A stretch of DNA of 64,000 nucleotides, taken from Thermoclostridium stercorarium subsp. stercorarium DSM 8532 (GTDB taxonomy: Bacteria; Bacillota; Clostridia; DSM-8532). Below are positions 25,983 to 58,483 of this stretch, piece by piece (position 1 is the stretch's first letter; every line of letters starts with the position of its first letter). The notes beneath the pieces were generated by a model. It was not told the DNA's origin. It did no database searches and was given only the letters and a program-made list of their open reading frames with translations. The stretch covers positions 1,897,465-1,961,464 of the forward strand of contig NC_020134.1 in assembly GCF_000331995.1 (NCBI RefSeq), written 5' to 3'. The position numbers were made by a program, and so were the translations under genes.

Positions 25983-27008
25983 TTACCTTACCATCTCCAT
26001 TATTGATGCCGCTATCCGCTCCAGAGAAAGTTGCCTGGTCACGGCACCAATGTTATATGCCACTTTAGGCATGCCATAAACCACCGAAGAATGCTCGTCC
26101 TGGCCGATTGTATACGCTCCTTTTCTTTTCATCGCAAGCAGGCCCTTTGCTCCGTCATAACCCATTCCGGTGAGGATAACCCCAATGGCGTCCTTTCCGG
26201 CTTCTTTTGCAACAGATTCAAACAATACATCAACCGACGGACAGTGTCCGTTGACCTTTTCACCATTAAAACATTCCACCTTGTACCTGTTCGCCACTTT
26301 CTTTATTCTCATATGCTTATCCCCGGGAGCTATCAGCACTTTTCCCTGTTCCACATAGTCACCGGTTTCTGCCTCTTTCACACGGAGTTGTGTGGATGAA
26401 TTCAGCCGTTCAGCAAAAAGCCTTGAAAATACAGGGGGTATATGCTGAACTATAACAATTCCGGGAATTGTCGGAGGCATGCCTTTCAGTATTTTCGCTA
26501 TTGCCTCGGTTCCTCCGGTAGAAGCCCCTATAGCGATTATTTTTCGTGAATCAAAGGCTTCCGACGTCCCTTCGGGCTGCATGGAACTTTTCACCGTATT
26601 CTGTACTATTTTTGCATTTGACGCAACTTTTATCTTTTCAATGAGGCTGTAAATAAACTGTTTTACATTTGTCACATCTCCCATATTCGGTTTTTCAACA
26701 AAATCAACCGCACCGGCATTCAATGCATCGAAAACCACGCCGCTTACCGAACTTACCACAATAACAGGTACCGGATATTGAGGAATAAGTCTCCGTATAA
26801 ATTCTATTCCGTTCATTTTTGGCATTTCCACGTCACATGTTATAACATCAGGCTTATATATCAGTATTTTATCTCTTGCTTCAAAAGGATCCTTCGCTGT
26901 AGCCACAACCTTTATTTCAGGCTCCGATGAGATACCCAGCGTTAATAATTCGCGAAATACAATACTGTCGTCAACCACAAGAACTTTTATGGTTCTGCCG
27001 TTTCCCAC
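25983..27008 (-). CDS. cheB: Chemotaxis response regulator protein-glutamate methylesterase CheB
   Basis: A CheB of about 341 residues: an N-terminal receiver domain (VLVVDDS..., phosphoacceptor Asp in TCDVEMPKMNG) joined to a methylesterase domain with catalytic Ser (IGASTGGTEA), His (VQHIPPVFS) and Asp (GMGYDGAKG). It removes methyl groups from receptor glutamates. The GTG at 27008 has GGAGGA 6 bases upstream. A GTG at 27038, overlapping the cheR stop, would add 10 residues but has a poorly spaced site. It is the last gene of cluster 1 (cheA-cheW-cheR-cheB). Confidence 0.95.
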   Translation of the reverse strand: MGNGRTIKVLVVDDSIVFRELLTLGISSEPEIKVVATAKDPFEARDKILIYKPDVITCDVEMPKMNGIEFIRRLIPQYPVPVIVVSSVSGVVFDALNAGAVDFVEKPNMGDVTNVKQFIYSLIEKIKVASNAKIVQNTVKSSMQPEGTSEAFDSRKIIAIGASTGGTEAIAKILKGMPPTIPGIVIVQHIPPVFSRLFAERLNSSTQLRVKEAETGDYVEQGKVLIAPGDKHMRIKKVANRYKVECFNGEKVNGHCPSVDVLFESVAKEAGKDAIGVILTGMGYDGAKGLLAMKRKGAYTIGQDEHSSVVYGMPKVAYNIGAVTRQLSLERIAASIMEMVR

Positions 27009-27034
27009 CGAATCTCCTCCCAACTCCACATATG

Positions 27035-27850
27035 TCACACCTTTCTGTAGATACCCGGCAGAATATACTGAAAGCCCGTTTCGTTACGGGGTATGGACTC
27101 AGTATGCCCGATAAAAAGGTATCCGCCGTATTCCATGATGTCATAGAATTTGTTAATGAGCTCCATTTTCGTGCTATGCCTGAAATATATCATAACATTG
27201 CGGCAAAAAATAACGTGAAATTTTTTCTTAAACGGAAAAACCTTTTCCATAAGGTTAAACCTTCTGAAAATAACTTCCTTTTTAATTTTGTTATTTATCA
27301 TGTAATTTCCGTTGTCCAATTTTTCGAAATAATTCAGCCTCCACATTGACGGAAGGCTTTCAACCTCATCCTTGCCGTAAATTCCGTTTATAGCTTCGTA
27401 AAGCACTTTGTTTGATATATCTGTGGCAAGTATTTTTGTGTCCCATAGTGCTTTTTCGTTTTTAAAGAAGTCATCAATTATAATTGCAAGGGTATAAGGC
27501 TCCTGTCCGGTTGAGCACCCGGCGCTCCATATTCTTAAATCTTTGTTCTTTACCGTTTTTGCAAGATAGGGAAGCACGTTTTCCCTGAAATAATTGAAAT
27601 GATCTGCTTCCCTCATAAAAAACGTATGGTTTGTGGTTATTTTATTCACCAGTTCTATCAATGCTTTACCTGATTTGTCAGAGCGGATAAATTCAAAATA
27701 CTGTGTAAAATTTTCACAATTATTGTTAACAAGTTCATTATATAACCTGCTGCTTAAAATCAATTTTTTTTCTTTTTTTATATGAATTCCATAGTTTTGT
27801 TCAATATATTCCGCCAGCTGTTTAAATTCCTGCTCCGTTATTGTAATCAC
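27035..27850 (-). CDS. cheR: Chemotaxis protein methyltransferase CheR
   Basis: A 271-residue CheR that methylates receptor glutamates using S-adenosylmethionine. The N-terminal all-helical domain spans about residues 1-75, followed by the Rossmann methyltransferase domain with the SAM motif (RIWSAGCSTGQEPYTLA), the ATDIS acidic strand, and FHVIFCRNVMIYF. The start codon is GTG at 27850 with a weak GGGTGA site 10 bases away. It overlaps the possible upstream cheB start and is co-transcribed with it. Confidence 0.95.
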   Translation of the reverse strand: MITITEQEFKQLAEYIEQNYGIHIKKEKKLILSSRLYNELVNNNCENFTQYFEFIRSDKSGKALIELVNKITTNHTFFMREADHFNYFRENVLPYLAKTVKNKDLRIWSAGCSTGQEPYTLAIIIDDFFKNEKALWDTKILATDISNKVLYEAINGIYGKDEVESLPSMWRLNYFEKLDNGNYMINNKIKKEVIFRRFNLMEKVFPFKKKFHVIFCRNVMIYFRHSTKMELINKFYDIMEYGGYLFIGHTESIPRNETGFQYILPGIYRKV

Positions 27851-27959
27851 AATACATTTATCACCCGCTTGCTTCCGCTTTTATGTTTTCAATTTCAAAT
27901 TCACTGTCACTTAACATAACTGTCCTTTCACAGTTCTCCCCACATCTGTCCGCCATAAG

Positions 27960-27987
27960 ATGCCCCCACAGAAGCATGCAGGGGCAT
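27960..27987 (-). terminator. Hairpin between cheW and cheR
   Basis: ATGCCCC and GGGGCAT form a 7-bp stem with a 14-base loop in the 147-base gap. No strong U run follows, so it may be an RNA-processing or partial-termination point inside the che operon. Confidence 0.4.
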
Positions 27988-27997
27988 AAACAATAAA

Positions 27998-28492
27998 TCA
28001 TAAAACTTCATTTAAACTTTCAACATCTTCATCTGTCAGCAATTTCTCGCAGTCAAGAAGAAGCCTGACTTCATCGCTTATTTTTCCTATTTTCTTAACG
28101 TAGTGATTCTGATATCCCTGCCTGATATACGGCAGTTCAGAAATGTCAGCTTCATTTATAGTGACCACCTCAGACACGCTGTCAACAATAAGTCCCACCG
28201 ACATCCCCATTATATCCACAACGATAATACAGGTCCTGTCGCTGTATTCTCTTGGTTCCTTTTTGAACCTCAGCCGCACGTCCATTACAGGAATAATTTT
28301 TCCCCTTAAATTAATGATACCCTTTACATAATCAGGCAGTTCAGGTACCCCGGTTATTGTCTGAATCCCGATGATTTCGGTTACATACCGGATTTCTATA
28401 CCGTAGCTTTCATCATCTATTGAAAATATCAGGTACCTTCCTTCCTGGGTATCTTTGTCTTCCGTCACGATACTGGTCTGAATATCCGCCAT
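27998..28492 (-). CDS. cheW: Chemotaxis adaptor CheW
   Basis: A 164-residue CheW, very similar to the copy at 19059-19526 (shared YEIEIRYVTEIIGIQ-like segment, PELP-x-YVKGIINLRG, MDVRLRFKK). AGGGGGCG precedes the ATG by 6 bases. It lies 30 bases after cheA in cluster 1. The near-identity of the two CheW proteins suggests they serve the same array with receptor 15987-18978. Confidence 0.95.
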   Translation of the reverse strand: MADIQTSIVTEDKDTQEGRYLIFSIDDESYGIEIRYVTEIIGIQTITGVPELPDYVKGIINLRGKIIPVMDVRLRFKKEPREYSDRTCIIVVDIMGMSVGLIVDSVSEVVTINEADISELPYIRQGYQNHYVKKIGKISDEVRLLLDCEKLLTDEDVESLNEVL

Positions 28493-28522
28493 TAAAACGC
28501 CCCCTTAAAAAAATAAAAAATG

Positions 28523-30598
28523 TTATTTGTTATGAACAAGATTGGCAATATCCAGTATAAGGCTTATACTTCCGTCCCCCAGCAAGGTACAGCCGGATAT
28601 GCCGCTAATTTTCTTAAATCTTTTTATATATTCAGGCAAGGATTTCACCACTACCTGTTGCTGGCCCAGCAGTCTGTCGGCAAAAACACATATGTTCCTT
28701 TCATCCTGCGAAATCATAATAATTATACCGTCCGAAATATTCGTTACTTCGGTCTCTATCCCGAAAAACTTGTGGAGTCTCAATACAGGGTAGCATTCCC
28801 CCCGTACCATAATCATCTCGTTACCGTCGGGATCCACAATCACTTTTTCATCCCTGGGTCTGAACGATTCCTGTATTGAAATGGTAGGTATCGTAAAAGT
28901 GGATTTTCCCACCTGTATATTCATTCCGTCAATAATCGCCAGAGTAAGCGGTATGGCAAGGGTTATCTGTGTTCCCTTGTTTTTTTCGCTTTCTATGGAA
29001 ATACTTCCGCCAATTGCCTCAATGTTTTTCGCTACAACGTCCATTCCAACGCCGCGGCCTGAAAATTCAGTCACTTTATCACTTGTTGAAAAACCGGGCA
29101 GGAGTATAAGTCTGTATATCTCCGAATCCGACAAGCTGTCTTCATCGGTTGTAAGCAGATTATTTTCCCTGGCCTTCTTAAGTATCTTCTCCTTGTTCAG
29201 GCCCCTTCCGTCGTCTTTAACGATAATATGTACGTCACTGCCCACATTTTTGGCTTCGATGGTTATTTTCCCTACCCTGCCTTTACCCATTGCTTCTCTT
29301 TCCTCAGCAGTTTCTATTCCATGGTCTACGGCGTTTCTTACAAGGTGCATCAGGGGATCTGTTATCCGTTCAATAATGTTTTTGTCCACCTCTGTTTCTT
29401 CCCCTATTATTTCGAGCTGAACCTCCTTGTTAAGCTTTCTGCACATATCCCTTACAATTCGGTTCATTCTCTGGAAAGTGGCCGCCAGCGGCACCATTCT
29501 TACCGACATTACGATATCCTGAATTTCACTGGTTATTTTACTCAGCTGGGTTGCCGCCTTATGGAAGTTCGCAAGCTCTAATCCCTGCAAATCGGGATTT
29601 TGTATTACCATCGCCTCGGCTATAACCATTTCGCCTACAAGATCCATCAGTCTGTCCAGTTTTGCCACGCTGACGCTTATATAACTCTGCGCTGATGACG
29701 TGCTGTGATGATCGCCGACATTCTGTTTTTGCTCGGTCTCTGTATGGCTTTTTTCAACCTGTGCAGTTTTCCCTCCGTCTTCAGTTTCAGCCGTGGCATT
29801 TTCCTCCTGTTTTTTTACAGAATTTTCAGACAGAACTAATTCACCGTTTTCCCGATCCTGAAGGCTTTCAGCAAACGCTTTTTCATCAACAACCGGCAGT
29901 TGCAGTTTCCTTAAAAATACGGTCTGCACCAGCTGCTCCTGTATTTCTTCCTTCGACCTGTCGGTTTTAATAAATATTTGGAACCCTTCGCGACGGATCG
30001 TTTCAACGCTTTTTTCATTCTCAATAATGTCAGCCGGATAATAAACAAGCTTATATGCGATTTTTTCAAGGTTGTGAACAACCGCGAATGCTCTTATGTT
30101 TTCCATTTCACAGCCGTCTTCAAAATAAAGGACGGCTTTGAAATAATTAATTACTTCCTCATTCTTTTCCTCAGGAACGTTAAATCCTCTCTCTTTCAAC
30201 TGCGCAAGAAAACTTTTGATCTTTTCCACAAGTTCGGAAGGGTCTCCGTCAACATTATCCTTGTTTCTTATTTTTTCCAGCTCAATTTTAATGAAGTCTA
30301 TACAAGTAAGAATTAAATCATTCAAATCCGAGGAAAAATATTTTTCGGGCTTTTCCTTGCGTATATAGGAAAACAGATCCTCAATGGCGTGGGACAGCGC
30401 CGCTATTCCGTTGAACATCATCATTGAAGAGGATCCTTTTATGGTATGCATTATTCTGAAAATTTCATTTATGTCCTCTTCGGAATAATGCTGCCTTGTT
30501 TCACATGACAAAACAACCTGCTCAAGCTGTTCCAGCAACTGAGAAGCTTCAAAAAGGAACATTTCCAGCATGGCATCATTTGAAAAAAGATCCGCCAT
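28523..30598 (-). CDS. cheA: Chemotaxis histidine kinase CheA
   Basis: A 691-residue CheA. The start at 30598 (MADLFSND) has GGTGA 4-5 bases upstream; a longer in-frame extension to 30835 belongs to a decayed MFS gene. The HPt domain carries His51 in IMHTIKGSSSM. A P2-like region follows, then an acidic/Gln-rich linker near 290-325, the dimerisation domain (SVAKLDRLMDLVGEMVIAE), the ATPase domain (N box LVRNAVDHGIE, G boxes DDGRG and GRGVGMDV) and a C-terminal CheW-like domain. It is the first gene of cluster 1. No cheY is found with it. Confidence 0.96.
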   Translation of the reverse strand: MADLFSNDAMLEMFLFEASQLLEQLEQVVLSCETRQHYSEEDINEIFRIMHTIKGSSSMMMFNGIAALSHAIEDLFSYIRKEKPEKYFSSDLNDLILTCIDFIKIELEKIRNKDNVDGDPSELVEKIKSFLAQLKERGFNVPEEKNEEVINYFKAVLYFEDGCEMENIRAFAVVHNLEKIAYKLVYYPADIIENEKSVETIRREGFQIFIKTDRSKEEIQEQLVQTVFLRKLQLPVVDEKAFAESLQDRENGELVLSENSVKKQEENATAETEDGGKTAQVEKSHTETEQKQNVGDHHSTSSAQSYISVSVAKLDRLMDLVGEMVIAEAMVIQNPDLQGLELANFHKAATQLSKITSEIQDIVMSVRMVPLAATFQRMNRIVRDMCRKLNKEVQLEIIGEETEVDKNIIERITDPLMHLVRNAVDHGIETAEEREAMGKGRVGKITIEAKNVGSDVHIIVKDDGRGLNKEKILKKARENNLLTTDEDSLSDSEIYRLILLPGFSTSDKVTEFSGRGVGMDVVAKNIEAIGGSISIESEKNKGTQITLAIPLTLAIIDGMNIQVGKSTFTIPTISIQESFRPRDEKVIVDPDGNEMIMVRGECYPVLRLHKFFGIETEVTNISDGIIIMISQDERNICVFADRLLGQQQVVVKSLPEYIKRFKKISGISGCTLLGDGSISLILDIANLVHNK

Positions 30599-30724
30599 TT
30601 TCTTCACCGTCCAAAGTATTTTAAACATTAATATGATACTAATATCGACATATTTCGACTTGCCATTAAGAGCTAATAAATATACAACATAAATCACATA
30701 AATAAAATATTTCCTGGGTCTGAT

Positions 30725-31227
30725 GAAGGATATCAGGTAATTCAGCTCAAATTCGTACCGGCCGGCTATTAGGCTTCCGCTTAATGCAGCCAGAATTGAC
30801 GCTGTGAAATCCAGAGCATTAAAAATCCCAGGCATTTTTCAAAAGAATCCTCGGAACCATCTGAGAAAAGCGAATCATAAAGCAAAGCGTTCTCTGCTCC
30901 ACTTCCGGCTGCGCGTCCCACCCCTGCCAGAAATACCACCAGCGAAAAGTGAATGAACTCTCTCGCGTATATCAGTATCAGAAATTCACAACATCCCAGG
31001 AATGCGCTTACTATTATCAGCTTTTTTCTGCCCCATTTATCGGCAATAATACCGGACGGAACCTCCAACAGGACAACCGTAAACGCATATATGATTTCAG
31101 TGTAAACCACCATTGGGACTGTCATGCCCCGTTGTTCCCAGAACAGCCTTTCTATTACATAAGCCGGAATCAGGTTGTGAAAAAAACGGATGGCATACCG
31201 TTTACGGACATTCATCATACAGTTCAT
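30725..31227 (-). pseudogene. Decayed MFS transporter fragment
   Basis: The N-terminal part of a major facilitator transporter: four membrane segments with the loop motif GIIADKWGRKK after TM2. A GAGGAG site lies 7 bases before the ATG at 31227. The frame then shifts within a T run near 30828 (adding one T would continue as GFFNALDFTASILAALSGSLIAG in the other frame). Homology fades after about 30725, well before the twelve helices are complete. The cheA gene follows almost at once. It is a non-functional remnant. Confidence 0.75.
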
Positions 31228-47810: not shown

Positions 47811-48896
47811 TCAGATATATGACATTATTTCACGAAAAATACCCGACAAAGGCACCTGAACATCAGCCAGCCCTGCCTCATAAACGGCCTTTGGCATGCC
47901 ATACACAATACATGATTCTTCAGCCTCAACAATCACCTTTCCGTTGTATTTTTTCACCGCTTCACATCCTAAAAGACCGTCGTTTCCCATTCCCGTAAGA
48001 ATTACAGACAATAACCTTTCTTTAAACACCTGCGCCGCCGAATAAAGGGTTATGTCAATAGACGGTTTGTAAACAGTGTCAACAGACAGGTTGTCTTCTA
48101 TTCTTAAAACTGTTGCTCCGTCCGTTTTCTTATCAATGAATGTTTGGTAACCTGCCGGCGCTATATAAATGTTACCGGCTTTGAGAATATCCCCGTTTTC
48201 AGCTTCTTTTACCCGTAATTTGCAGATGGTGTCAAAACGTTCAGCCAACGGTTTTGTAAAACCCGGAGGCATATGCTGCAAAACAACGACTGGCACATGC
48301 ATGTCTTCCGGAAAACGGGGCAGTATGGCCTGTAACGCCGAGGGACCTCCGGTTGAACATCCTATTATTATAAGATCCGCCAGTCCTGTTTTTGTTTCGG
48401 TCACCTTTTCGGGTTTATTCAAAATGCTTTCGAGAATTTCAGTCACCTCAGAAATGGTTTTATTTCGCTCTTTATTTACAGTCCTTTTCGCGTTTTCGGC
48501 TATGGTTTTTAATTTTTCAAGAAACTCCTTTATTATCTCAGGTTTTACATCATCCCCCAACAATACGTTTTTTAAAAAGAAGTCTGCAGCCCCCGACTCC
48601 AAAGCTTGAAAAGCAGCTTCCGGATATTTGCCGGTTTTGTTGCACAGCACAACAACAGGAACAGGACAAGACTTCTTAATTTCTTTCAAAGCTGTAATAC
48701 CGTCCATTTCAGGCATCTCAATATCCATTGTCACAATGTCGGGCCTTAGCCTCCGTACTTTCTCTATCGCTTCAACGCCATTTCTTGCGATTCCTATGAC
48801 AAAAAGCTGAGGATCCCTCTCTATAAGCATGCTTATACATTTGCGCATAAAGGACGAATCGTCCACTACCAATACCCCATACTGCTTCACGTACAC
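47811..48896 (-). CDS. cheB: Chemotaxis protein-glutamate methylesterase CheB (cluster 2)
   Basis: A 361-residue CheB with an N-terminal receiver (Asp58 in VTMDIEMPEMDG) and a C-terminal methylesterase domain with catalytic Ser in IGCSTGGPSALQ, His in VVLQHMPPGF and Asp in LTGMGNDGLLG. It is clearly diverged from the CheB at 25983-27008. It overlaps the end of cheR by 10 bases and is the last gene of cluster 2. It would demethylate the giant receptor encoded two genes upstream. Confidence 0.95.
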   Translation of the reverse strand: MYVKQYGVLVVDDSSFMRKCISMLIERDPQLFVIGIARNGVEAIEKVRRLRPDIVTMDIEMPEMDGITALKEIKKSCPVPVVVLCNKTGKYPEAAFQALESGAADFFLKNVLLGDDVKPEIIKEFLEKLKTIAENAKRTVNKERNKTISEVTEILESILNKPEKVTETKTGLADLIIIGCSTGGPSALQAILPRFPEDMHVPVVVLQHMPPGFTKPLAERFDTICKLRVKEAENGDILKAGNIYIAPAGYQTFIDKKTDGATVLRIEDNLSVDTVYKPSIDITLYSAAQVFKERLLSVILTGMGNDGLLGCEAVKKYNGKVIVEAEESCIVYGMPKAVYEAGLADVQVPLSGIFREIMSYI

Positions 48897-49723
48897 TTTT
48901 CCCCTTTCCGGTAATAAAATGCAGAAGGTGTGTATATAGTCTCAAATCCGGTATTCATACCGGTTATGGTTTCAGCATGACCTAAGAACAGGTATCCGCC
49001 GTCGTTTAACACATCATACAGGGAATTAATAACTTTGTTTATAGCTTCCTTATTAAAATAAATCAGTACATTCCTGCAAAAAATTATATCCACTTTCCCT
49101 ATTCTTTCCGCTATATCCTTGTCCATGAGATTTATACAGCGAAAATCAACCATTGCCCTGACCGAATCCCTGATCACATATTCCTCTTCAGCCGAAACAA
49201 AATATTTTTCAAGCATCTCTTTGGGCATTGTACGGAAAGAAAATGACTTTTTGTTATATGATCCACTTATGGCCTTTTCCAGAACCTTTTTATTTATATC
49301 AGATGCAATGATTTCAACGGCGCCGGTTTGAAAAAGTCCTGTTTCTTCGGCTATTATCGCCAATGTATAAGGCTCCTCCCCGCTGGAACAGGCTGAACAC
49401 CATATACGCAAAGGATTTTCGGGAGTACGGTCCTTATATTGTGGCAGTACAGTCTTTTGAAATTCTGCCAAAAGGTTTTCTTCACGGAAAAAATAAGTTT
49501 CATTCACCGTAATAAGTTCAATAAGCATATCCCATTCTTTCGGTTCAACCCTTAAATAACCTCCGTATTCCCAGCAGGAAAGCCCAAGTTCGTTAAGCCT
49601 TTCCGATATTTTGGCTTCAAGTGAGGAAAGACTTTTGGAAAAATCAATTCCGCAGTATTCATATATAAGCTCTGCCAGTTGAATAAGCCCGAACGTATCC
49701 ATACCGACTGTTCCATCCTCCAC
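48887..49723 (-). CDS. cheR: Chemotaxis protein methyltransferase CheR (cluster 2)
   Basis: A CheR of up to 278 residues. The helical N-terminal domain is followed by the SAM-dependent methyltransferase domain (RIWCSACSSGEEPYTLA, IASDINKKVLEKA, VDIIFCRNVLIYF). The outer start is GTG 49723 without a clear site; an ATG at 49702 has GGAGG 14 bases upstream and matches the usual family start better. It uses SAM to methylate receptor glutamates. It lies about 275 bases after the giant receptor gene with a stable hairpin between. Confidence 0.94.
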   Translation of the reverse strand: MEDGTVGMDTFGLIQLAELIYEYCGIDFSKSLSSLEAKISERLNELGLSCWEYGGYLRVEPKEWDMLIELITVNETYFFREENLLAEFQKTVLPQYKDRTPENPLRIWCSACSSGEEPYTLAIIAEETGLFQTGAVEIIASDINKKVLEKAISGSYNKKSFSFRTMPKEMLEKYFVSAEEEYVIRDSVRAMVDFRCINLMDKDIAERIGKVDIIFCRNVLIYFNKEAINKVINSLYDVLNDGGYLFLGHAETITGMNTGFETIYTPSAFYYRKGEKCT

Positions 49724-49997: not shown

Positions 49998-52900
49998 TCA
50001 TTGAATTAATTCAAGAAGCACATTCATAATCTCTTCCGAGTATTTAGACAATTCATTCGTTACTGTAACAGTTCGTTCAACATCCTTGATATTAAGGTTG
50101 ATAACACGGTTTATTTCCGAAGTATATTTAGCCAACTGTTCCACATCATTCGCCTGAATTTTTGTCGCGTCAGCCACTCCACCTGCCTGAAGGGTTACAT
50201 GCTCTACGTTATTAATAACCTTATCCGCACTTGCCGACTGCTCTTTCATAGCCGCCGTAATCTGTTTTACCTGTTCTCTTGCATTTGCCACGCCTCTTAC
50301 TATATTCTCAACTCCATGAGCCTGTTCTTTTGTAATATTGGTAATCTGTGCCGCCTGACTGGTAATATTCTCAACGCCGGAAACTATGTTTTGCCCCTGT
50401 CTGGCCTGTTCTTTTACTGCAGTTGTAACCTGGAGCATTTGTTCTCTTGCATTCTCAATGCTTTTCACTATATCGTTAATACCTTGAGCCTGTTCTTTAA
50501 CCGCGTTTGTCACAAAAGCCGCCTGTTCGGTAATGTTCTGAACCGACTTTGTAATATCCTGGCCATGTTTTGCCTGTTCTTTCACTGCAACGGTAATCTG
50601 TCGTACCTGTTCCCGCGCATTGGCAACACCCCTGATGATTTCATCAACACCTGCCGCCTGTTCCTGTACCGTCTGGGAAACCTGGGAGGCTTGGTTTGTA
50701 ACGTTTTCAGCGGCTTTAACGATGATTTGTCCCTGAGACGCCTGTTCTTTTACTGCTTCGCTTATTTGATTTATCTGTTCCCTCGCATTCAGAACACTTT
50801 TAATGATTTCTTCCACGCCCTGGGCCTGTTCAATGGTGGCCTGTGTCACCTGGGCTGCCTGTTTTGTTACATTTTCCACTGCCGCTATAATATTCTGTCC
50901 CTGTTTTGCCTGTTCCTTTACCGCATCTGAAATCTGCCTTACCTGTTCTCTTGCGTTGACTACACCCTTAATGATTTCTTCAACTCCCTGAGCCTGTTCA
51001 ATGGTGGCCTGTGTCACCTGGGCTGCCTGTTTTGTCACGTTTTCCACTGCAATTACAATATTCTGCCCCTGTTTCGCCTGTTCCTTCACCGCTTCGCTGA
51101 CTTGCCTTATCTGTTCCCTGGAATTCTCTATGCCCTTTATAATATTTTCAAGCTCTTTGGCCTGTTCCTTGGTTATATCGCTCACCTGTGCCGCCTGCCT
51201 GGTCACATTCTCAACCGCCGCAACAATGCTCTGCCCCTGCTTGGCCTGTTCTCGCACTGCAAGTGTAACCTGACGCATTTGTTCCCTTGCGTTATCAATA
51301 TCTTTAATTATATTTTCAACACCTTTAGCCTGTTCGATGGTGGCCTGAGTTACCTGTGCGGCCTGTTTGGTAACGTTTTCAGCGGCAGCCACTATATTCT
51401 GGCTTTGTTTTGCCTGCTCTTTCACCGCTATGGTAATCTGCCTTAGCTGTTCGCGGGCATTGGCTATGCCCTTTATTATTTCCTCAACCCCGGCGGCCTG
51501 TTCTTTCACCGCGGCAGATACCTGGGCTGTTTGCAAGGTAACGTTTTCAACGGCCTGTACGATGTTTTGCCCCTGCTTTGCCTGTTCTTTCACCGCAACG
51601 GTAACCTGACGCATCTGTTCCCTTGCATTGGCTACCCCCTTGATAATTTCTTCCACGCCTCTGGCCTGTTCCGTTGTAGCCTGAGTAACTTGCGCGGCCT
51701 GATTTGTTACGTTTTCCACGGCGATTACAATATTCTGTCCCTGTTTTGCCTGTTCCTTCACCGCAACAGTAACCTGTCTCACCTGTTCTCTTGCATTTGC
51801 AATACCTTTGACTATATTTTCCACTCCTGCAGCCTGTTCTTTCGTCGCCTGGGTAACCATCGCCGCCTGGTTAGCTACCGTATTCACCGCTTCAATGATT
51901 TTTGCGCTGCCTTTATTCTGTTCTTCAGTCGCAGTGGTTATCTGGCGGATCTCCGCATTCACATTTTCTATTCCTTCAACTATTTTTTCAATGGCCTTTC
52001 CTGCCTCATCACTTAACCTTGAACCATGCTCAACCTTTTGAGTGCCGATTTCTATCGCCTTGATGGCCTGGCTTGTTTCTCCCTGTATTCCTTTAATGAG
52101 ATCCGATATTTCCTTTGTTGCTGTGGCCGTGCGTTCCGCCAGTTTTCTTACTTCATCGGCGACAACCGCAAATCCCTTGCCATGCTCTCCCGCTCTTGCC
52201 GCTTCAATTGCAGCGTTCAGCGCAAGGAGATTGGTCTGTTCCGCGATATCGTCAATGACTTCAATTATACTGCCTATTTTTTCCGAACTTTTCCCAAGTC
52301 CGTTTATAACATTTTCAGCACGATGAATAACCTCGGATATATCCTTTATAGCCAGCAATGTATCGGCAACGGCTTTCTGACCGTCTTTCGCGTCATTCAT
52401 CACATTTTCACTCAATTTATTTACATTTTGCGCGCTTTGCGCGACCTGGCTGATCGAAGCCGCCATGTTTTCAACGACGTTAAATGTTTCATTTGCGGAT
52501 TTCTGGAGCAACTCGGCACTTTTCGCAACACCCTGAATTGATTTGCTCATCTGTTCTATAGAAGCAGATATCTCTTCAACCGATTTGGCCGTACTTTCCG
52601 CATTTCCGGCTACCTGCTGGATTGACGCCACTATTTCCTGCACCGCTGCCGTTGCCTCTTCTGCTGATCCTTTAAGGCTTTCGGCGTTTCCGGCAACACC
52701 TTTTATCGATTTGCTCATTTGTTCGATGGATGATGAAATTTGTTCCACGGAACTTGCGGTACTTTCCGCATTACCCGATACCTGCTGTATTGATACCACC
52801 ATTTCCTGTATTGCAGCAGAGGATTCATCTGCCGATGCTTTCAGGCTTTCACTGTTCCCTGCCACTCCTTTTATCGACTTACCAATTTGTTCTATGGACG

Positions 52901-54434
52901 AAGCGATTTGTTCTACTGAGCTTGCCGTACTTTCCGAATTTCCGGCCACCTGCTGGATGGATGTTACTATTTCCTGTATTGCCGCAGCAGTCTCGTCCGC
53001 AGATGTTTTTAAACTTTCGGCATTTCCCGCAACTCCTTGTATGGACTTACCCATTTGTTCTATAGATGAAGCTATTTCTTCGACTGATTTTGACGTGCTT
53101 TCCGCGTTCCCGGCCACCTGCTGGATGGATGCCACAATCTCCTGTATTGCCGCCGACGCTTCTTCCGCGGAACCTGTCAGGCTTTCGGCATTGCCCGCTA
53201 CACTCCTGATAGACTTTCCTATCTGTTCAATGGATGAAGAAATTTGTTCCACCGAGTTGGCGGTACTCTCGGCATTACCGGATACCTGCTGTATGGACGA
53301 TATAATTTCCTGCACCGCCGCTGTAGCCTCTTCGGCAGATTCTTTCAGGCTTTCGGCGTTTCCGGCAACGCCTTTTATAGACTTACCCATCTGCTCTATT
53401 GAAGAAGATATCTGTTCTATGGATATCGATGTGCTTTCACTGTTTCCGGCAACCTGCTGAATGGACGCCACAATCTCCTGTACCGCTTCCGATGTTTCCT
53501 GGGCGGATTCTGTCATGCTTTCGGCATTTCCGGCAACACTTTTAACCGATTTGCCCATTTGCTCGACGGATAAAGATATCCTTTCTATGGAATTCGCAGT
53601 ATTTTCAGCATTGCCGGCCACCTGCCGGATTGATGCAACCATTGAATGAATGGCTTTTGTCGCTTCTTCGGCAGAACTTGACAGACTTTCCGCGTTATCC
53701 GCCACTCCTTTGATAGATTTGCCCATTCGTTCAATGGCAGCAGAGATTTGTTCCACCGAGGCAGCTGTGCTTTCAGCATTACCAGCTACCTGCTGAATAG
53801 ACGCAGCAACTTCCTGAACCACCGCAGTAGCCTCTTTTGCAGAGCCGGTAAGATTTTCGGCATTTCCGGCAACGCCTTTTATCGATTTACTCATCTGTTC
53901 TATCGAAACAGAAATCTGCTCTACAGACCCAGCAGTACTTTCAGCATTTCCGGCCACCTGCTGGATAGACGCAACTATCTCCTGTATGGCTTTTGAGATC
54001 TTTGAGATCTCTTCGGCTGAAGCTGCCATACTTTCAGCGTTACCTGCCACACTTTTTATTGATTTTCCCATTTGCTCAATCGAAGCCGATATCTCCTCCA
54101 CCGACTTCGACGTGCTTTCACTGTTCCCGACAACCTGTTTTATCGTAAAAACCATTTCTTCAAGAAACTTTTGGGACTGTTCGGCAAGTTCCATCAGTCT
54201 TTCGGCGTTCCTTACAACACCTTTAATTGACTTTGAAAGCTCGTCCGTCATTGAATTTGTGGAAACTACAGCAGCGGATTGTTCCACGGTACCTTTTTTT
54301 ACCTGTTCGGCAATACCGGATAAAACCTTTAGTTTTTCATCCAGTTTTTTTGCTGAATCTGCGGCAATATTAACACTGTAAGTAATTCCCGATTTCTTCA
54401 TAAATTTTAAAGCCATATTTCTTTTGAATCCCAT
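49998..54434 (-). CDS. Giant soluble chemoreceptor with symmetric 56-residue repeats
   Basis: A 1478-residue methyl-accepting protein with no membrane helix and no recognisable sensor domain. Residues 1-68 are a short head. Residues 69-687 are eleven units of 56 residues of the type [12 protein letters not shown]...SIEQMGK. The signalling tip ([21 protein letters not shown]) is near 732-752. Residues 825-1440 are eleven further 56-residue units of the type [15 protein letters not shown]...EEIIKGVAN, and 1441-1478 is a tail. Eight heptads per unit on both arms imply a paired antiparallel coiled coil, roughly 90-100 nm long if fully helical. AGGGGG precedes the ATG by about 9 bases. It lies between cheA and cheR, so it is the receptor of cluster 2. 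Confidence 0.93.
50115..51962 (-). repeat. C-terminal arm: eleven 168-bp tandem repeats in the receptor gene
   Basis: Eleven in-frame 168-bp units encoding 56 residues each (residues 825-1440). The last ten start with A/S-REQ. Conserved positions include [17 protein letters not shown]-x-QAAQV and EQA-x-GVEEIIK. Units differ at many positions, so the expansion is not recent, but lengths are strictly kept. Confidence 0.9.
52374..54230 (-). repeat. N-terminal arm: eleven 168-bp tandem repeats in the receptor gene
   Basis: Ten clear units and one diverged eleventh unit encode 56 residues each (residues 69-687), with [26 protein letters not shown] and [14 protein letters not shown] as the common parts. 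Unit 2 is 3 residues longer because of a 9-bp direct duplication (TTTGAGATC twice, 53992-54009). The number of units equals that on the C-terminal arm. Confidence 0.9.
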
Positions 54435-54475: not shown

Positions 54476-56566
54476 TTAATTTTCAGTCTGTTTATTATGG
54501 ATTTTTGCAGCCCTTTTCTTGCTTATCATGTCCAGAATTCCCGCCACGTCAAGTATGCAGGCTACACTTCTGTCACCCAGAATCGTAGCTCCGGATATAC
54601 CTTCAACTTTTCCTATGTAAGATCCCAGGTTTGTAACAACAATTTCCTGGTTCCCTATAAGTCCATCCACTACAAGGCCGAAATGCCTTTCAGCTATTCC
54701 GAGTAATACTACAAGAACATTCCTTTTCTCCTCTCCTCGCGGAATCCCGAAATAATCATGCAGCCATACCAAAGGAATTGCTTTGTCCCTTATAACCGTA
54801 ATGGCCTGTCCGTTAACCGACTCTATTTCGTTATTTGTTTTCCTTACAATTTCAATCACGTTATTCATAGGAATCGCGTATGTTTCATCCCCGATTTTTA
54901 CCAGAAGTCCTTTCAATATTGCGAGCGTGAACGGAAGCTTGATTATAAACCTTGTACCGGCCCCAGCGCATGTTTCAACATCAATGATTCCATTTAATTT
55001 CTCAACATGCGACTTTACAATATCCAGTCCGACTCCACGCCCGGAAATATCACTTACAGTTTGCGAAGTTGAAAAACCCGAATGAAAAATTAAGTTTATC
55101 AGCTGCTGTTCGGTCATACTGTCTGCTTCCTGCGCTGTTACAAGCCGTTTTTTTACCGCAGCTTCTTTTATTTTCTGTATATCAATCCCCGCCCCGTCAT
55201 CTTCAACAGTTATTATTACATTGCTGTCATGATGAAATGCAGTTATCCGCAAAGTACCCTTTTCAGGCTTTCCCAATCTTCTGCGTACCTCCGGCTCTTC
55301 AATCCCGTGATCTATGGCATTCCGTATAAGGTGGATCAAAGGATCACTCATTTCTTCCATTATTGTCCTGTCTATCTCGGTTTCTTCACCCTCAAGCACA
55401 AGATTTACCTCTTTATTCAACGATCGGGACAAATCCCGCACCATTCGGGGAAATCGGCTGAACAATTGCTGTATCGGAATCATGCGTGTTTTTATGATTT
55501 TTTCGCGAAGCTCGTTTATCAACACCGATATATTGTTTGAAATAACAACCAGATCATCGACAGTTTCATCAGACCGATACCGGTTGTATAAGCTGTTTGC
55601 AACCTGTGCAATTCTTATCTGTTCTATCACCAGTTCTCCTACCAGCTCCATCATTCTTTCCAGCCGATCCACATCAATCCTAACGGTATGTACAATCTTT
55701 TTTTCATCCCCCGGTGTTTTTGCACACGAGGCATTGTCCATGTCCCGTGTCTCAGTCTCATATGCTTTTATTACATGTTCAGCGGTATCGACGCTATAAG
55801 GAAAAACTTTGACATCACTTACATCCATCAGGTCATTCCGCGCTTTATGCTCCAACGCAGCAGCGCTCATCTGTGTGATAACTAAAAAGGCCACGTTGCA
55901 GATATCAGAATCTACCGGCACCTCCAAGACATTTGGAACCATGCTTACGACAGTGCCCCATTCATTAAGAAAGTTCATAATAAGACAGGCTCTGGTTGAT
56001 TTCATCTGGCTGTCTTCAGAAATACTAATTTCGCATACAAGAACATTCTGCCCGATTTCCAAGGCATGGTTTATCTGCTCCCGCTGTTTTGTGTCAAGAG
56101 CGAATATTACTGATTTACTATGTTCAACCTCCGCATTCCCGGCTTTATCCGGATTATCTTCTTGCTTATTCTCAGACGCCGTTATTGCTTTCAGTTTGTT
56201 TATAACAGGATTTATATCGGTCTTAATGTTGTTCGCGTCCGATACGTAATCATCTTTCAGCATTCTTAAACAGTCCAGGCAATCAAAAAGGACATCTGTA
56301 ACCGGTCCGGATATTTTCAGAAAACCGTTCCGGATACTGTCCAAAACATTCTCCAGTTCATGGGCAAGGTTTTTCATTTTCTCAAAACCCATGGTGGCCG
56401 AACAGCCCTTTAAGGTATGGGCAATGCGGAATAATTCATGCACATGTTCTTCCGTCTCCCCGTTTTGTTCCAAACTTATAATGCTGTTTTCAAGCATTTG
56501 TAACTGTTCTTCCACTTCGGCAATAAAAGCTCCAATCATCTCAGGACTTTCAAATATACTGGCCAT
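54476..56566 (-). CDS. cheA: Chemotaxis histidine kinase CheA (cluster 2)
   Basis: A 696-residue CheA. The start at 56566 ([10 protein letters not shown]) has GGGGGAAA just upstream, and a longer frame would overlap cheW. The HPt domain carries His50 in [14 protein letters not shown]. Then come a P2-like region, the dimerisation domain ([19 protein letters not shown]), the ATPase domain ([26 protein letters not shown]) and the CheW-like domain. Distinct from the cluster 1 CheA (different HPt and linker). It phosphorylates the cluster CheY and CheB under control of the giant receptor. Confidence 0.96.
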
Positions 56567-56579
56567 GCTTTCCCCCTTC

Positions 56580-57008
56580 TTATTCATAGAGTACCTTGTC
56601 AATGTTCAAAATGCTTATAACGCCTTCGTCGGTAATACCTACGCCCTCAAAATAGCTGCCGTCAATACCGGCTACCATCTCCGGAGGTGGCTGAATATCG
56701 GAAAATCTTATAACCTGGTTTACTTTATCAACCACAATCCCAATCATTTCATTCCTGCTTTTTACAACTATTATCCTGGTTTTCTTCGTAGAGGTGTAAT
56801 CAGGAAGACCGAATTTTCTATGAAGATTGGCTACAGGTATGATCCTGCCCCTGAGATTAATAATTCCCTCAAGAAAAGCTTTACTGTTATGTATTGGTGT
56901 AATATTCTGCATTTTTATAATTTCATATACATCGCTGATTTTTAACGCATATTTCTCACCGGCCAATTCATAAACCACATATTGGCTGTTTAAAAGCTCG
57001 TCCATCAT
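56580..57008 (-). CDS. cheW: Chemotaxis adaptor CheW (cluster 2)
   Basis: A 142-residue CheW with the core ALKISDVYEIIKMQ, GIINLRGRIIPVANLHRKFG and RIIVVKSRNEMIGIVVDKVNQVIRF. A G-rich run (GGGGGGGGAACA) precedes the ATG at 57008. It is between cheY and cheA with short gaps (13 bases before cheA), so co-transcription is clear. It is only distantly similar to the two CheW proteins of cluster 1, which supports two separate signalling arrays. Confidence 0.95.
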   Translation of the reverse strand: MMDELLNSQYVVYELAGEKYALKISDVYEIIKMQNITPIHNSKAFLEGIINLRGRIIPVANLHRKFGLPDYTSTKKTRIIVVKSRNEMIGIVVDKVNQVIRFSDIQPPPEMVAGIDGSYFEGVGITDEGVISILNIDKVLYE

Positions 57009-57033: not shown

Positions 57034-57387
57034 TTACAGTTTATTTAATGTCTGAATTACGTAATCCTCCTTAAACGGCTTTACTATAAACCCTTTTGCT
57101 CCAGACAGGACTGCCTCCCTCACATAAGCTTCCTGCCCGAGGGCCGAAATCATTATAACTTTGGAATTGGCATCAAATTTTCTTATTTCCTTCAGTGCCT
57201 GGATACCATCCATGACCGGCATTGTTATATCCATCGTTACAATATCCGGTCTGAGCTCTTTATATTTTTTTACTGCCACTGAACCGTTTTCTGCCTCGTC
57301 CACTACCTGAAAGCCATTCTTTTCAAGCATGGCTTTTAAAGACATTCTCATAAAAGCGGTGTCATCAACGATAAGAACTCTCTTCAT
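57034..57387 (-). CDS. cheY: Chemotaxis response regulator CheY
   Basis: A 117-residue single receiver domain: acidic pair Asp8-Asp9, phosphoacceptor Asp53 (VTMDITMPVMDG), Ser in MISALG and Lys in FIVKPF. The ATG at 57387 has GGGTGA 7 bases upstream and is preferred over an ATG two codons earlier. It is the first gene of cluster 2 and its start is about 170 bases from the left recombination-like site. As an output protein it could act on the flagellar motor or on another target; no flagellar gene is in the window. Confidence 0.94.
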   Translation of the reverse strand: MKRVLIVDDTAFMRMSLKAMLEKNGFQVVDEAENGSVAVKKYKELRPDIVTMDITMPVMDGIQALKEIRKFDANSKVIMISALGQEAYVREAVLSGAKGFIVKPFKEDYVIQTLNKL

Positions 57388-57469
57388 TAGCATTTCACCC
57401 TCTCAAGTCATGTAAAAATACAAAACAAAATAATCAGCCATTCCGGCCTTCAATTGCGTTCCTTTGGCC

Positions 57470-57503
57470 CAAACCCCGGTACTCCGTGTGCCTCCCGGGT
57501 TTG
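57470..57503 (-). promoter_or_regulatory. Hairpin in the cheY 5' leader
   Basis: CAAACCCCGG (57470-57479) pairs with CCGGGTTTG (57495-57503) with one bulge and a 15-base loop. It lies between the left recombination-like site and cheY, without a U run, so any promoter inside the invertible segment would transcribe through it. No strong promoter is visible between this hairpin and cheY. Confidence 0.4.
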
Positions 57504-57555
57504 TTTTCTAAAATTACAAACACAATACATGTTTTATATTTCTTTTCTTTTTTCT

Positions 57556-57585
57556 AAAGTAACAATATGTCCATTTTGTTACATT
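57556..57585. repeat. Left inverted recombination-site-like repeat
   Basis: A 30-bp site with the layout AAAGTAACAA-N10-TTGTTACATT, whose outer arms are themselves near-inverted repeats around an asymmetric centre (TATGTCCATT). The inner 24 bp (57559-57582) occur again in exact reverse complement at 58457-58480. Two recombinase-arm motifs around a short asymmetric spacer is the normal form of a tyrosine-recombinase core site. Confidence 0.85.
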
Positions 57586-57797
57586 ATTTAGAAATAAAAA
57601 GCCTTATATACCGCATGTCTGACGTTAATAACTTTTTAAACATCAATTTTTAGCAAAAAAACTCATGAATCTTTTTAATTATATTTCTGATAAATTGTTG
57701 CATTAGCCGGCAGCTTAGTTACGATATATTATTTGTGCATACCCGGATGATACAGGCATATAAAACCGCTTTAAAACTTTAAAGGGAGGATAGATTC

Positions 57798-58358
57798 ATG
57801 ACTGTGGAACCAATTCGCAGCAAGGAAAAAATTAAAAAAATGTACTATTACTTGAACGGAAAGGATCCCAAATACGGACTGTTGTTTAAATTTGGTCTGA
57901 ACACGGGATTAAGGATAAGCGATATTTTGCCTTTAAAAGTTAAAGATGTCTATACACCGGATAACCGGTTTCGTGAATACCTTATTCTGAAAGAGAAAAA
58001 AACGGATAAGGAGAAAAAAATAAAAATAAACCATTCTTTAAAGAGAGAGATAGATAACTACGTAAAAACGCAAAATTTAAAATATGAGGATTGGCTTTTC
58101 GCGAGCAGAAAAGGAGGGCATATTGGCAGAGTACAAAGCTACCGAGTATTGCGTGAAGCAGCCGAAGCCGTAGGCGTGGAGAACTTTGGCACCCATAGTT
58201 TGCGTAAAACCTGGGGATACTGGACCTATAAAATGTCCCGGTATAATATAGGGCTTATTATGGATACATTCAATCACAGCTCACAAAGTATAACGCTGCG
58301 TTATATAGGTGTAAACCAGGATCAAAAAGATGAGCTTTACTCTTTAGTCCAATTTTGA
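57798..58358 (+). CDS. Short tyrosine recombinase (FimB/FimE-sized)
   Basis: A 186-residue tyrosine recombinase consisting of little more than the catalytic domain. The active-site set is complete: Arg in TGLRISDILPL (near residue 38), Lys in the beta-hairpin region KEKKTDKEKKIKI, His-x-x-Arg in THSLRKTWGY, His in FNHSSQSIT and nucleophile Tyr in LRYIGV (near residue 170). The N-terminal core-binding domain of XerC/D-type integrases is missing, as in FimB and FimE, which invert a promoter. AAAGGGAGG lies 8 bases before the ATG. It is flanked by inverted 24-bp repeats, so inversion of its own segment is its probable job. Confidence 0.92.
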   Translation: MTVEPIRSKEKIKKMYYYLNGKDPKYGLLFKFGLNTGLRISDILPLKVKDVYTPDNRFREYLILKEKKTDKEKKIKINHSLKREIDNYVKTQNLKYEDWLFASRKGGHIGRVQSYRVLREAAEAVGVENFGTHSLRKTWGYWTYKMSRYNIGLIMDTFNHSSQSITLRYIGVNQDQKDELYSLVQF

Positions 58359-58362
58359 GTAT

Positions 58363-58402
58363 AATAAAATTCCCAAATAAATTATTTGGGAATTTTATTT
58401 TT
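58363..58402. terminator. Strong bidirectional terminator after the recombinase gene
   Basis: AATAAAATTCCCAAATAA and TTATTTGGGAATTTTATT are perfect complements (58363-58399) around one base, so the real loop is about 5 bases, followed by a T run. It isolates the recombinase gene from the outward promoter that follows. Confidence 0.85.
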
Positions 58403-58419
58403 GGACGTATTTAAATACG

Positions 58420-58446
58420 TTGAATAATTAACAATCTTGCCGATAT
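58420..58446 (+). promoter_or_regulatory. Sigma-D (sigma-28)-like promoter near the right end of the invertible segment
   Basis: GCCGATAT at 58439-58446 is an exact match to the -10 element of Bacillus sigma-D promoters. A TTGA at 58420-58423 is 15 bases upstream, in the place of the usual TAAA. It reads rightward into the site at 58454 and then into 350 bases without a rightward gene. After inversion it would read leftward into cheY. The -35 element is only a partial match. Confidence 0.5.
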
Positions 58447-58453
58447 ATAATTT

Positions 58454-58483
58454 AAAGTAACAAAATGGACATATTGTTACATT
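58454..58483. repeat. Right inverted recombination-site-like repeat
   Basis: AAAGTAACAA-N10-TTGTTACATT with centre AATGGACATA, the reverse complement of the left site over the inner 24 bp and matching it at 28 of 30 positions. Flanking bases outside the 30 bp are unrelated, which marks the limits of the repeat. Confidence 0.85.

Follow-up and report, generated by a model that had tools for sequence, protein, structure and literature searches.

Most known cases of phase variation concern surface structures, and invertible segments that enclose their own recombinase have already been described, Hin being one example. In C. difficile, the flg, cmr, pdcB and pdcC switches are turned by RecV and other recombinases (PMC5386303, PMC6837544, PMC9286219), and the enzyme for the pdcB switch has yet to be identified (PMC9286219). 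Work by Sekulovic et al. (2018; PMC5903667) reports, from sequencing reads, two invertible sites near chemotaxis genes of C. thermocellum DSM 1313, another beside an HD-type phosphodiesterase gene of Desulfitobacterium dehalogenans, and yet another beside an MCP gene of Anaerotignum propionicum. The same paper gives signaling and chemotaxis genes as the commonest neighbors of invertible sites in Clostridia, and includes a Providencia invertible segment with an enclosed recombinase (PMC5903667).

The locus described here lies in a 64,000-nucleotide stretch of Thermoclostridium stercorarium subsp. stercorarium DSM 8532 (contig NC_020134.1, positions 1,897,465 to 1,961,464), hereafter the window, in whose numbering coordinates are given. 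With a probability that we put at about 0.83, the segment at 57556-58483 is a self-contained invertible cassette that turns a che operon ON and OFF by moving an outward promoter. Its recombinase would pair the two sites at the segment's ends and exchange strands over a 6-bp overlap, TGTCCA, whereby the 0.9-kb segment would be turned around. In the window orientation, the recombinase gene points away from cheY, and the outward promoter would do so too, leaving the operon OFF; once inverted, the promoter would point into cheY and switch it ON, making the chemosensory operon phase variable. The same scheme would apply across a family of such cassettes, with sigma-H or sigma-A outward promoters placed almost only before MCP, Che, GGDEF/EAL, HD-GYP and FapA genes.

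The segment, its recombinase and the neighboring operon

The segment is bounded by a left recombination site at 57556-57585, which contains GTAACAATATGTCCATTTTGTTAC at 57559-57582, and by a right site at 58454-58483, which contains the inverted copy, GTAACAAAATGGACATATTGTTAC, at 58457-58480. The two copies are reverse complements, exact over 24 bp (in the 28-mer context of 57557-57584 and 58455-58482), and each site has an asymmetric 10-bp core between near-palindromic arms. The predicted strand-exchange (overlap) bases are TGTCCA at 57568-57573 on the left and TGGACA at 58466-58471 on the right. A first-pass annotation of this DNA had proposed just such a pair, two 30-bp sites in opposite orientation with 24 bp identical and arms around an asymmetric 10-bp center; both points hold for both sites, and its coordinates were correct to within a base or two. 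Since no further copy of the 24-bp site occurs in the 2,974,379-bp genome, with up to three mismatches allowed, the pair is not a product of chance.

Between the sites lies a gene (57798-58358, plus strand) for a 186-aa tyrosine recombinase, recognized by Pfam PF00589 (E 4.4e-21). The match spans residues 11-173, and the enzyme therefore consists of the catalytic domain only, just as the annotation had described a recombinase of this length without the N-terminal domain. Its place among the tyrosine recombinases is given both by the Pfam profile and by the R..K..H-x-x-R..H/W..Y catalytic residues, all of which are present in an intact protein; R39, H133, R136, H160 and Y169, along with the K68/K71/K73 region, are invariant in at least 97% of 50 family members. 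The nearest relatives, with 89-92% identity, are those of Acetivibrio, and the window genome has no close second recombinase, the next best being 27-28% identical. A FimB/FimE-like enzyme had also been proposed, which stands as regards the lone catalytic domain but not as regards class, the NCBIfam FimB/E-type models scoring far under their cut-offs (NF007371, 37.4 bits against 222; NF007370, 27.7 against 221). By analogy, the window recombinase may resemble FimB/FimE in its working, and it is not classed as a member of that type. Ahead of the gene, 57583-57797 (plus strand) comprises a leader and a presumed recombinase promoter, the position of which is conserved in the cassette family. On the 3' side of the gene, a perfect, terminator-like hairpin (58363-58399; 18-nt arms matching at 100%, -17.4 kcal/mol) sets the recombinase apart from the outward promoter region, and a hairpin often separates the two across the family.

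The operon to the left of the segment runs on the minus strand, and Pfam bears out all six genes in the order given by the annotation: cheY, the first gene (57034-57393), cheW (56580-57008), cheA (54476-56602), a repetitive MCP receptor of 1478 aa (49998-54434), cheR (48887-49723) and cheB (47811-48896). The receptor has long degenerate-repeat runs on either side of its signaling domain, and its Pfam matches are MCPsignal and coiled-coil-like only, with no ligand-binding domain among them. The leader that separates cheY from the left site (57394-57555, minus strand) contains a G+C-rich hairpin (AAACCCGGG...CCGGGGTTT; z -1.9) and lies mostly beyond the stretch that can be aligned with A. mesophilus; it matches no Rfam family, nor did Rfam reveal any riboswitch in the intergenic region. 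A promoter independent of the segment's orientation may lie in this leader. To the right of the segment, the adjoining gene is convergent. The window also holds a second che cluster (25983-30835, minus strand; CheB, CheR, CheW and a 770-aa CheA), with no cassette of the recombinase family nearby.

A cassette family and its targets

Searches with the recombinase brought out homologous cassettes, about 50 distinct ones with identities of 57-92%, in many families of Clostridia and related Bacillota, and these are present in only about 4% of the sampled genomes. Nearly all have a matched, inverted pair of sites, one lying 60-270 bp ahead of the recombinase gene and the other 65-190 bp beyond its end. 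Recombinases at 45-50% identity (L107-L110) were excluded from the family because they lack paired sites; related enzymes in this range of identity also occur on plasmids and phages. The recombinase tree is discordant with taxonomy, and one genome carries four copies at different places.

The sites themselves appear to bear a record of exchange. In the 43 cassettes with at most one core mismatch, taken from 48 with scorable sites, the 10-bp core shows 0-1 mismatches within a pair against a mean of 4.7 between cassettes (permutation p < 1e-4); the other five are truncated by contig ends or have no recognizable partner site. Core columns 12-16 show no within-pair mismatch at all in the 43, while columns 13-15 vary most from one cassette to the next and column 16 also ranks high in this respect, and the few within-pair site differences are confined to the arms or the core edges. 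Cores that are matched within pairs and variable between cassettes fit a 6-bp strand-exchange region under concerted evolution and imply that exchange is continuing.

Some members have an unusual build. At L007 (9084-11527), three recombinase copies or fragments lie adjacent to one another, around masked stretches and beside an MCP gene, and the right end of L021 (10652-10780) has a third, partial site copy and a second sigma-H-like promoter in tandem. The recombinase gene of L030 (1015-1569) has one in-frame stop, at the nearly invariant tryptophan W139. A 61% identical recombinase without paired sites adjoins hsdM in L105 (4933-7415), and this locus perhaps represents a shift towards type I restriction-modification switching.

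The choice of neighbor is strongly biased. In 41 of the 44 cassettes scanned with Pfam, some of them mutual orthologues, the first gene facing the cassette (the nearest one whose start faces it) is chemosensory, c-di-GMP-related or FapA, the kinds counted being MCP, CheA, CheW, CheY, CheB, GGDEF/EAL, HD-GYP-type and FapA. An MCP is the second gene in two of the remaining three, and hsdM is adjacent in the third. On the opposite side of the cassette, none of nine genes picked by hand is of these kinds (0/9); at L016, whose cassette is surrounded by a che cluster, a gene on the opposite side looks like cheB. At L086, an IS stands between the cassette and its target.

Cassette and target also share their distribution. 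CheA of the window type (74-76% identity) was found, among 15 genomes searched, in the window genome and two cassette-bearing Acetivibrio genomes only, and in three genomes from the same genus as the window genome, the only CheA proteins are distant ones. In genus g32, the cassette and a che operon lie beside ksgA in four genomes, and neither is there in seven. Neither of these two cases yielded an empty site next to an intact target. Since cassette and target operon are either both present or both absent, they seem to travel together.

Inversion, the outward promoter and competing explanations

Both orientations of a cassette can be seen in one relative. The G779 assembly has an identical 856-bp element on two contigs, joined to different flanks; set against the single complete locus of a related genome (L098), one contig shows the same order throughout, and in the other it is the far flank that adjoins this same end of the element. 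The outer half-sites differ (ACGCAACAATT and ATGCAACAATA) and the inner ones are identical; each contig stops at the final base that the two orientations share. This contig pair, with its shared end point, means that both orientations existed in the sequenced DNA. Contigs that end at or in a site at other loci (L080/L147, L013, L099) were dropped as evidence of inversion, given that a 24-bp repeat alone can break a short-k-mer assembly; G779 was the only such case used because both junctions are assembled there.

A further reversal is found in two Acetivibrio genomes, where a second, paralogous che operon follows a site pair without an intact recombinase (L133 and L134; with 435 and 619 bp between the sites). 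From one genome to the other, the flanks are collinear and the interior is turned around, the promoter pointing towards the che operon in L133 (presumed A. thermocellus) and away from it in L134 (A. mesophilus). The opposite orientation that the first-pass annotation had proposed to look for in related genomes is thus found for the cassette of this paralogous operon. In both genomes (L133:3452-3910; L134:1740-2382), the recombinase is decayed, the sites are matched and intact, and the promoter is intact; these cassettes are likely flipped in trans by the one intact recombinase that each genome has elsewhere.

It is very likely that the enclosed recombinase carries out the inversion, and the window copy itself presumably flips. 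Its sites are identical to each other over 24 bp and different from those of Acetivibrio, which argues for exchange since the lineages parted. The original claim that the segment inverts is therefore carried by relatives (G779 with both orientations, L133 and L134 opposed, and the concerted evolution of site pairs) and would extend to the window copy from them.

In most cassettes, an outward promoter is found at one end only. At the right end (the site at the recombinase 3' end), many have the motif CAGGAAAA-N11-TGTCGAAT, which has the layout of sigma-H promoters in C. difficile. A sigma-H matrix built from 27 C. difficile promoters (PMC7438776), with a cut-off at the 10th percentile of true promoters, matches 19 of 49 right ends and 0 of 49 left ends, against 0.17 per shuffled set. 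Sigma-A-like sites (at least 10 of 12 matches) occur at 20 of 46 right ends versus 7 of 46 left ends, with 4.4 in shuffles, and most cassettes without the sigma-H form, above all the HD-GYP group, have a sigma-A-like promoter at the same end. An outward promoter at one end only would explain ON/OFF switching, and a recombinase that points away from the target, as in the window and most assemblies, should mark the OFF state. The presumed ON orientation is seen in L020, L031, L034, L091, L102 and L133.

The window's own candidate outward promoter, TTGAATAATTAACAATCTTGCCGATATATAAT (58420-58451, plus strand), lies beside the right site in the position of the sigma-H-like promoter of its Acetivibrio orthologues, and is weak. 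The window copy scores 1.7 on the sigma-H matrix and has lost the motif that those orthologues keep; the candidate, with 9 of 12 sigma-A matches, is missing from the list of the stricter scan. We also considered GCCGATAT (58439-58446) as a sigma-D element and rejected it, the octamer GCCGATAW occurring 12 times in the window (4.3 expected) and no good -35 being well placed. Because the window promoter is weak, we infer from relatives which state drives cheY, and the published orientation is probably OFF. On sequence grounds, it is likely that the che operon is switched by inversion and that its expression would follow the segment's orientation; the claim that the operon is phase variable gains from the one-ended promoters across the family and loses from the weakness of the window's own.

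That weakness would suit a cassette that flips for some other purpose, serving its own recombinase or the right-hand gene, with the che promoter outside the segment. The leader at 57394-57555 has room for such a promoter, and in the Acetivibrio orthologues the right-hand gene, of AraC type, could be driven in the published orientation. We nevertheless consider this unlikely, since 41 of 44 facing genes, against 0 of 9 opposite ones, share one kind of function, the family's outward promoters stand at one end only, and the window's right-hand gene is convergent. Marginally less probable is a fossil, that is, a switch formerly active in the lineage and now locked in the window genome. An intact recombinase with its full set of catalytic residues speaks against it, as do sites that are identical over 24 bp and differ from those of Acetivibrio, a sign of exchange after the lineages split; in its favor are the sigma-H motif kept in Acetivibrio and absent from the window, and the decayed recombinases of sister cassettes (L133, L134, L101, L030).

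It is very improbable that the segment is a small IS-like mobile element that came to lie near che genes by chance, its inverted sites being the element's ends. The 45-50% identical recombinases on plasmids and phages, the discordant recombinase tree and the four copies in one genome would all fit such an element, but the target bias goes far beyond random insertion, and inversion is directly evidenced in relatives. Window-type CheA, moreover, occurs only with the cassette among the 15 genomes searched, cassette and che operon are present or missing together beside ksgA in g32, and cores matched within pairs and variable between copies are unlike IS ends. The preferred reading is thus a cassette that switches the che operon by moving its outward promoter. 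A wider proposal, to which we give slightly better than an even chance, is that of a horizontally spread family of switch cassettes, each equipped with a recombinase of its own and dedicated to sensory and c-di-GMP genes of Clostridia and related Bacillota, with random ON/OFF states coupled to the transition-phase sigma-H and with small trans networks that flip recombinase-less sisters, the Acetivibrio genomes that carry two che operons being an example.

Comparison with known switches

Systems of this kind are known; new, to judge from the papers searched, is a dedicated, widespread, self-contained family of sensory cassettes. We take genome G364 to be C. thermocellum ATCC 27405 and G817 to be D. 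dehalogenans ATCC 51507. The C. thermocellum sites of 2018 are very probably the L079 and L133 cassettes, and the D. dehalogenans site is very probably L098, the latter if G817 is that strain. The Clostridia sites of that paper are the same kind of locus, with inversion seen in reads, and its main text contains no enclosed-recombinase family, one-ended promoter, recombinase-less derivatives, breadth or target specificity (PMC5903667). The first-pass annotation knew of no che operon switched in this way with the recombinase inside the segment, a claim that has to be narrowed: enclosed recombinases were known, as were, since 2018, invertible sites near chemotaxis genes of Clostridia (PMC5903667), and what the searched literature did not yield was a dedicated enzyme, this cassette architecture or the family as a whole.

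If the cassettes work as proposed, whether a cell senses and moves in the first place would be randomized among sister cells. Together with the enzyme and the one-ended promoter, the 6-bp overlap, which is visible in the sequence itself, would supply a simple rule for predicting phase-variable sensory genes and their state, applicable to many anaerobes, including the genetically tractable C. thermocellum. The excess of invertible sites near signaling genes of Clostridia reported in 2018 (PMC5903667) also gains a candidate enzyme and a possible explanation from this family. In short, the cassette seems to be a portable genetic coin-toss that governs sensing and movement.

The C. difficile switches resemble the cassettes in that regulatory DNA, partly upstream of c-di-GMP and motility genes, is inverted by site-specific recombinases; they differ in being segments of 154-230 bp without an internal recombinase, RecV working in trans. 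The fim switch of E. coli shares with the cassettes a tyrosine recombinase made up of the catalytic domain only (FimB/FimE), short inverted sites and an invertible promoter, but its enzymes lie outside the 314-bp segment and belong to another sequence subfamily, and it governs surface pili rather than sensing. Salmonella Hin/fljBA likewise has its recombinase gene within an invertible promoter segment of about 1 kb, whereas its enzyme is a serine recombinase that works with an enhancer and Fis on a single target.
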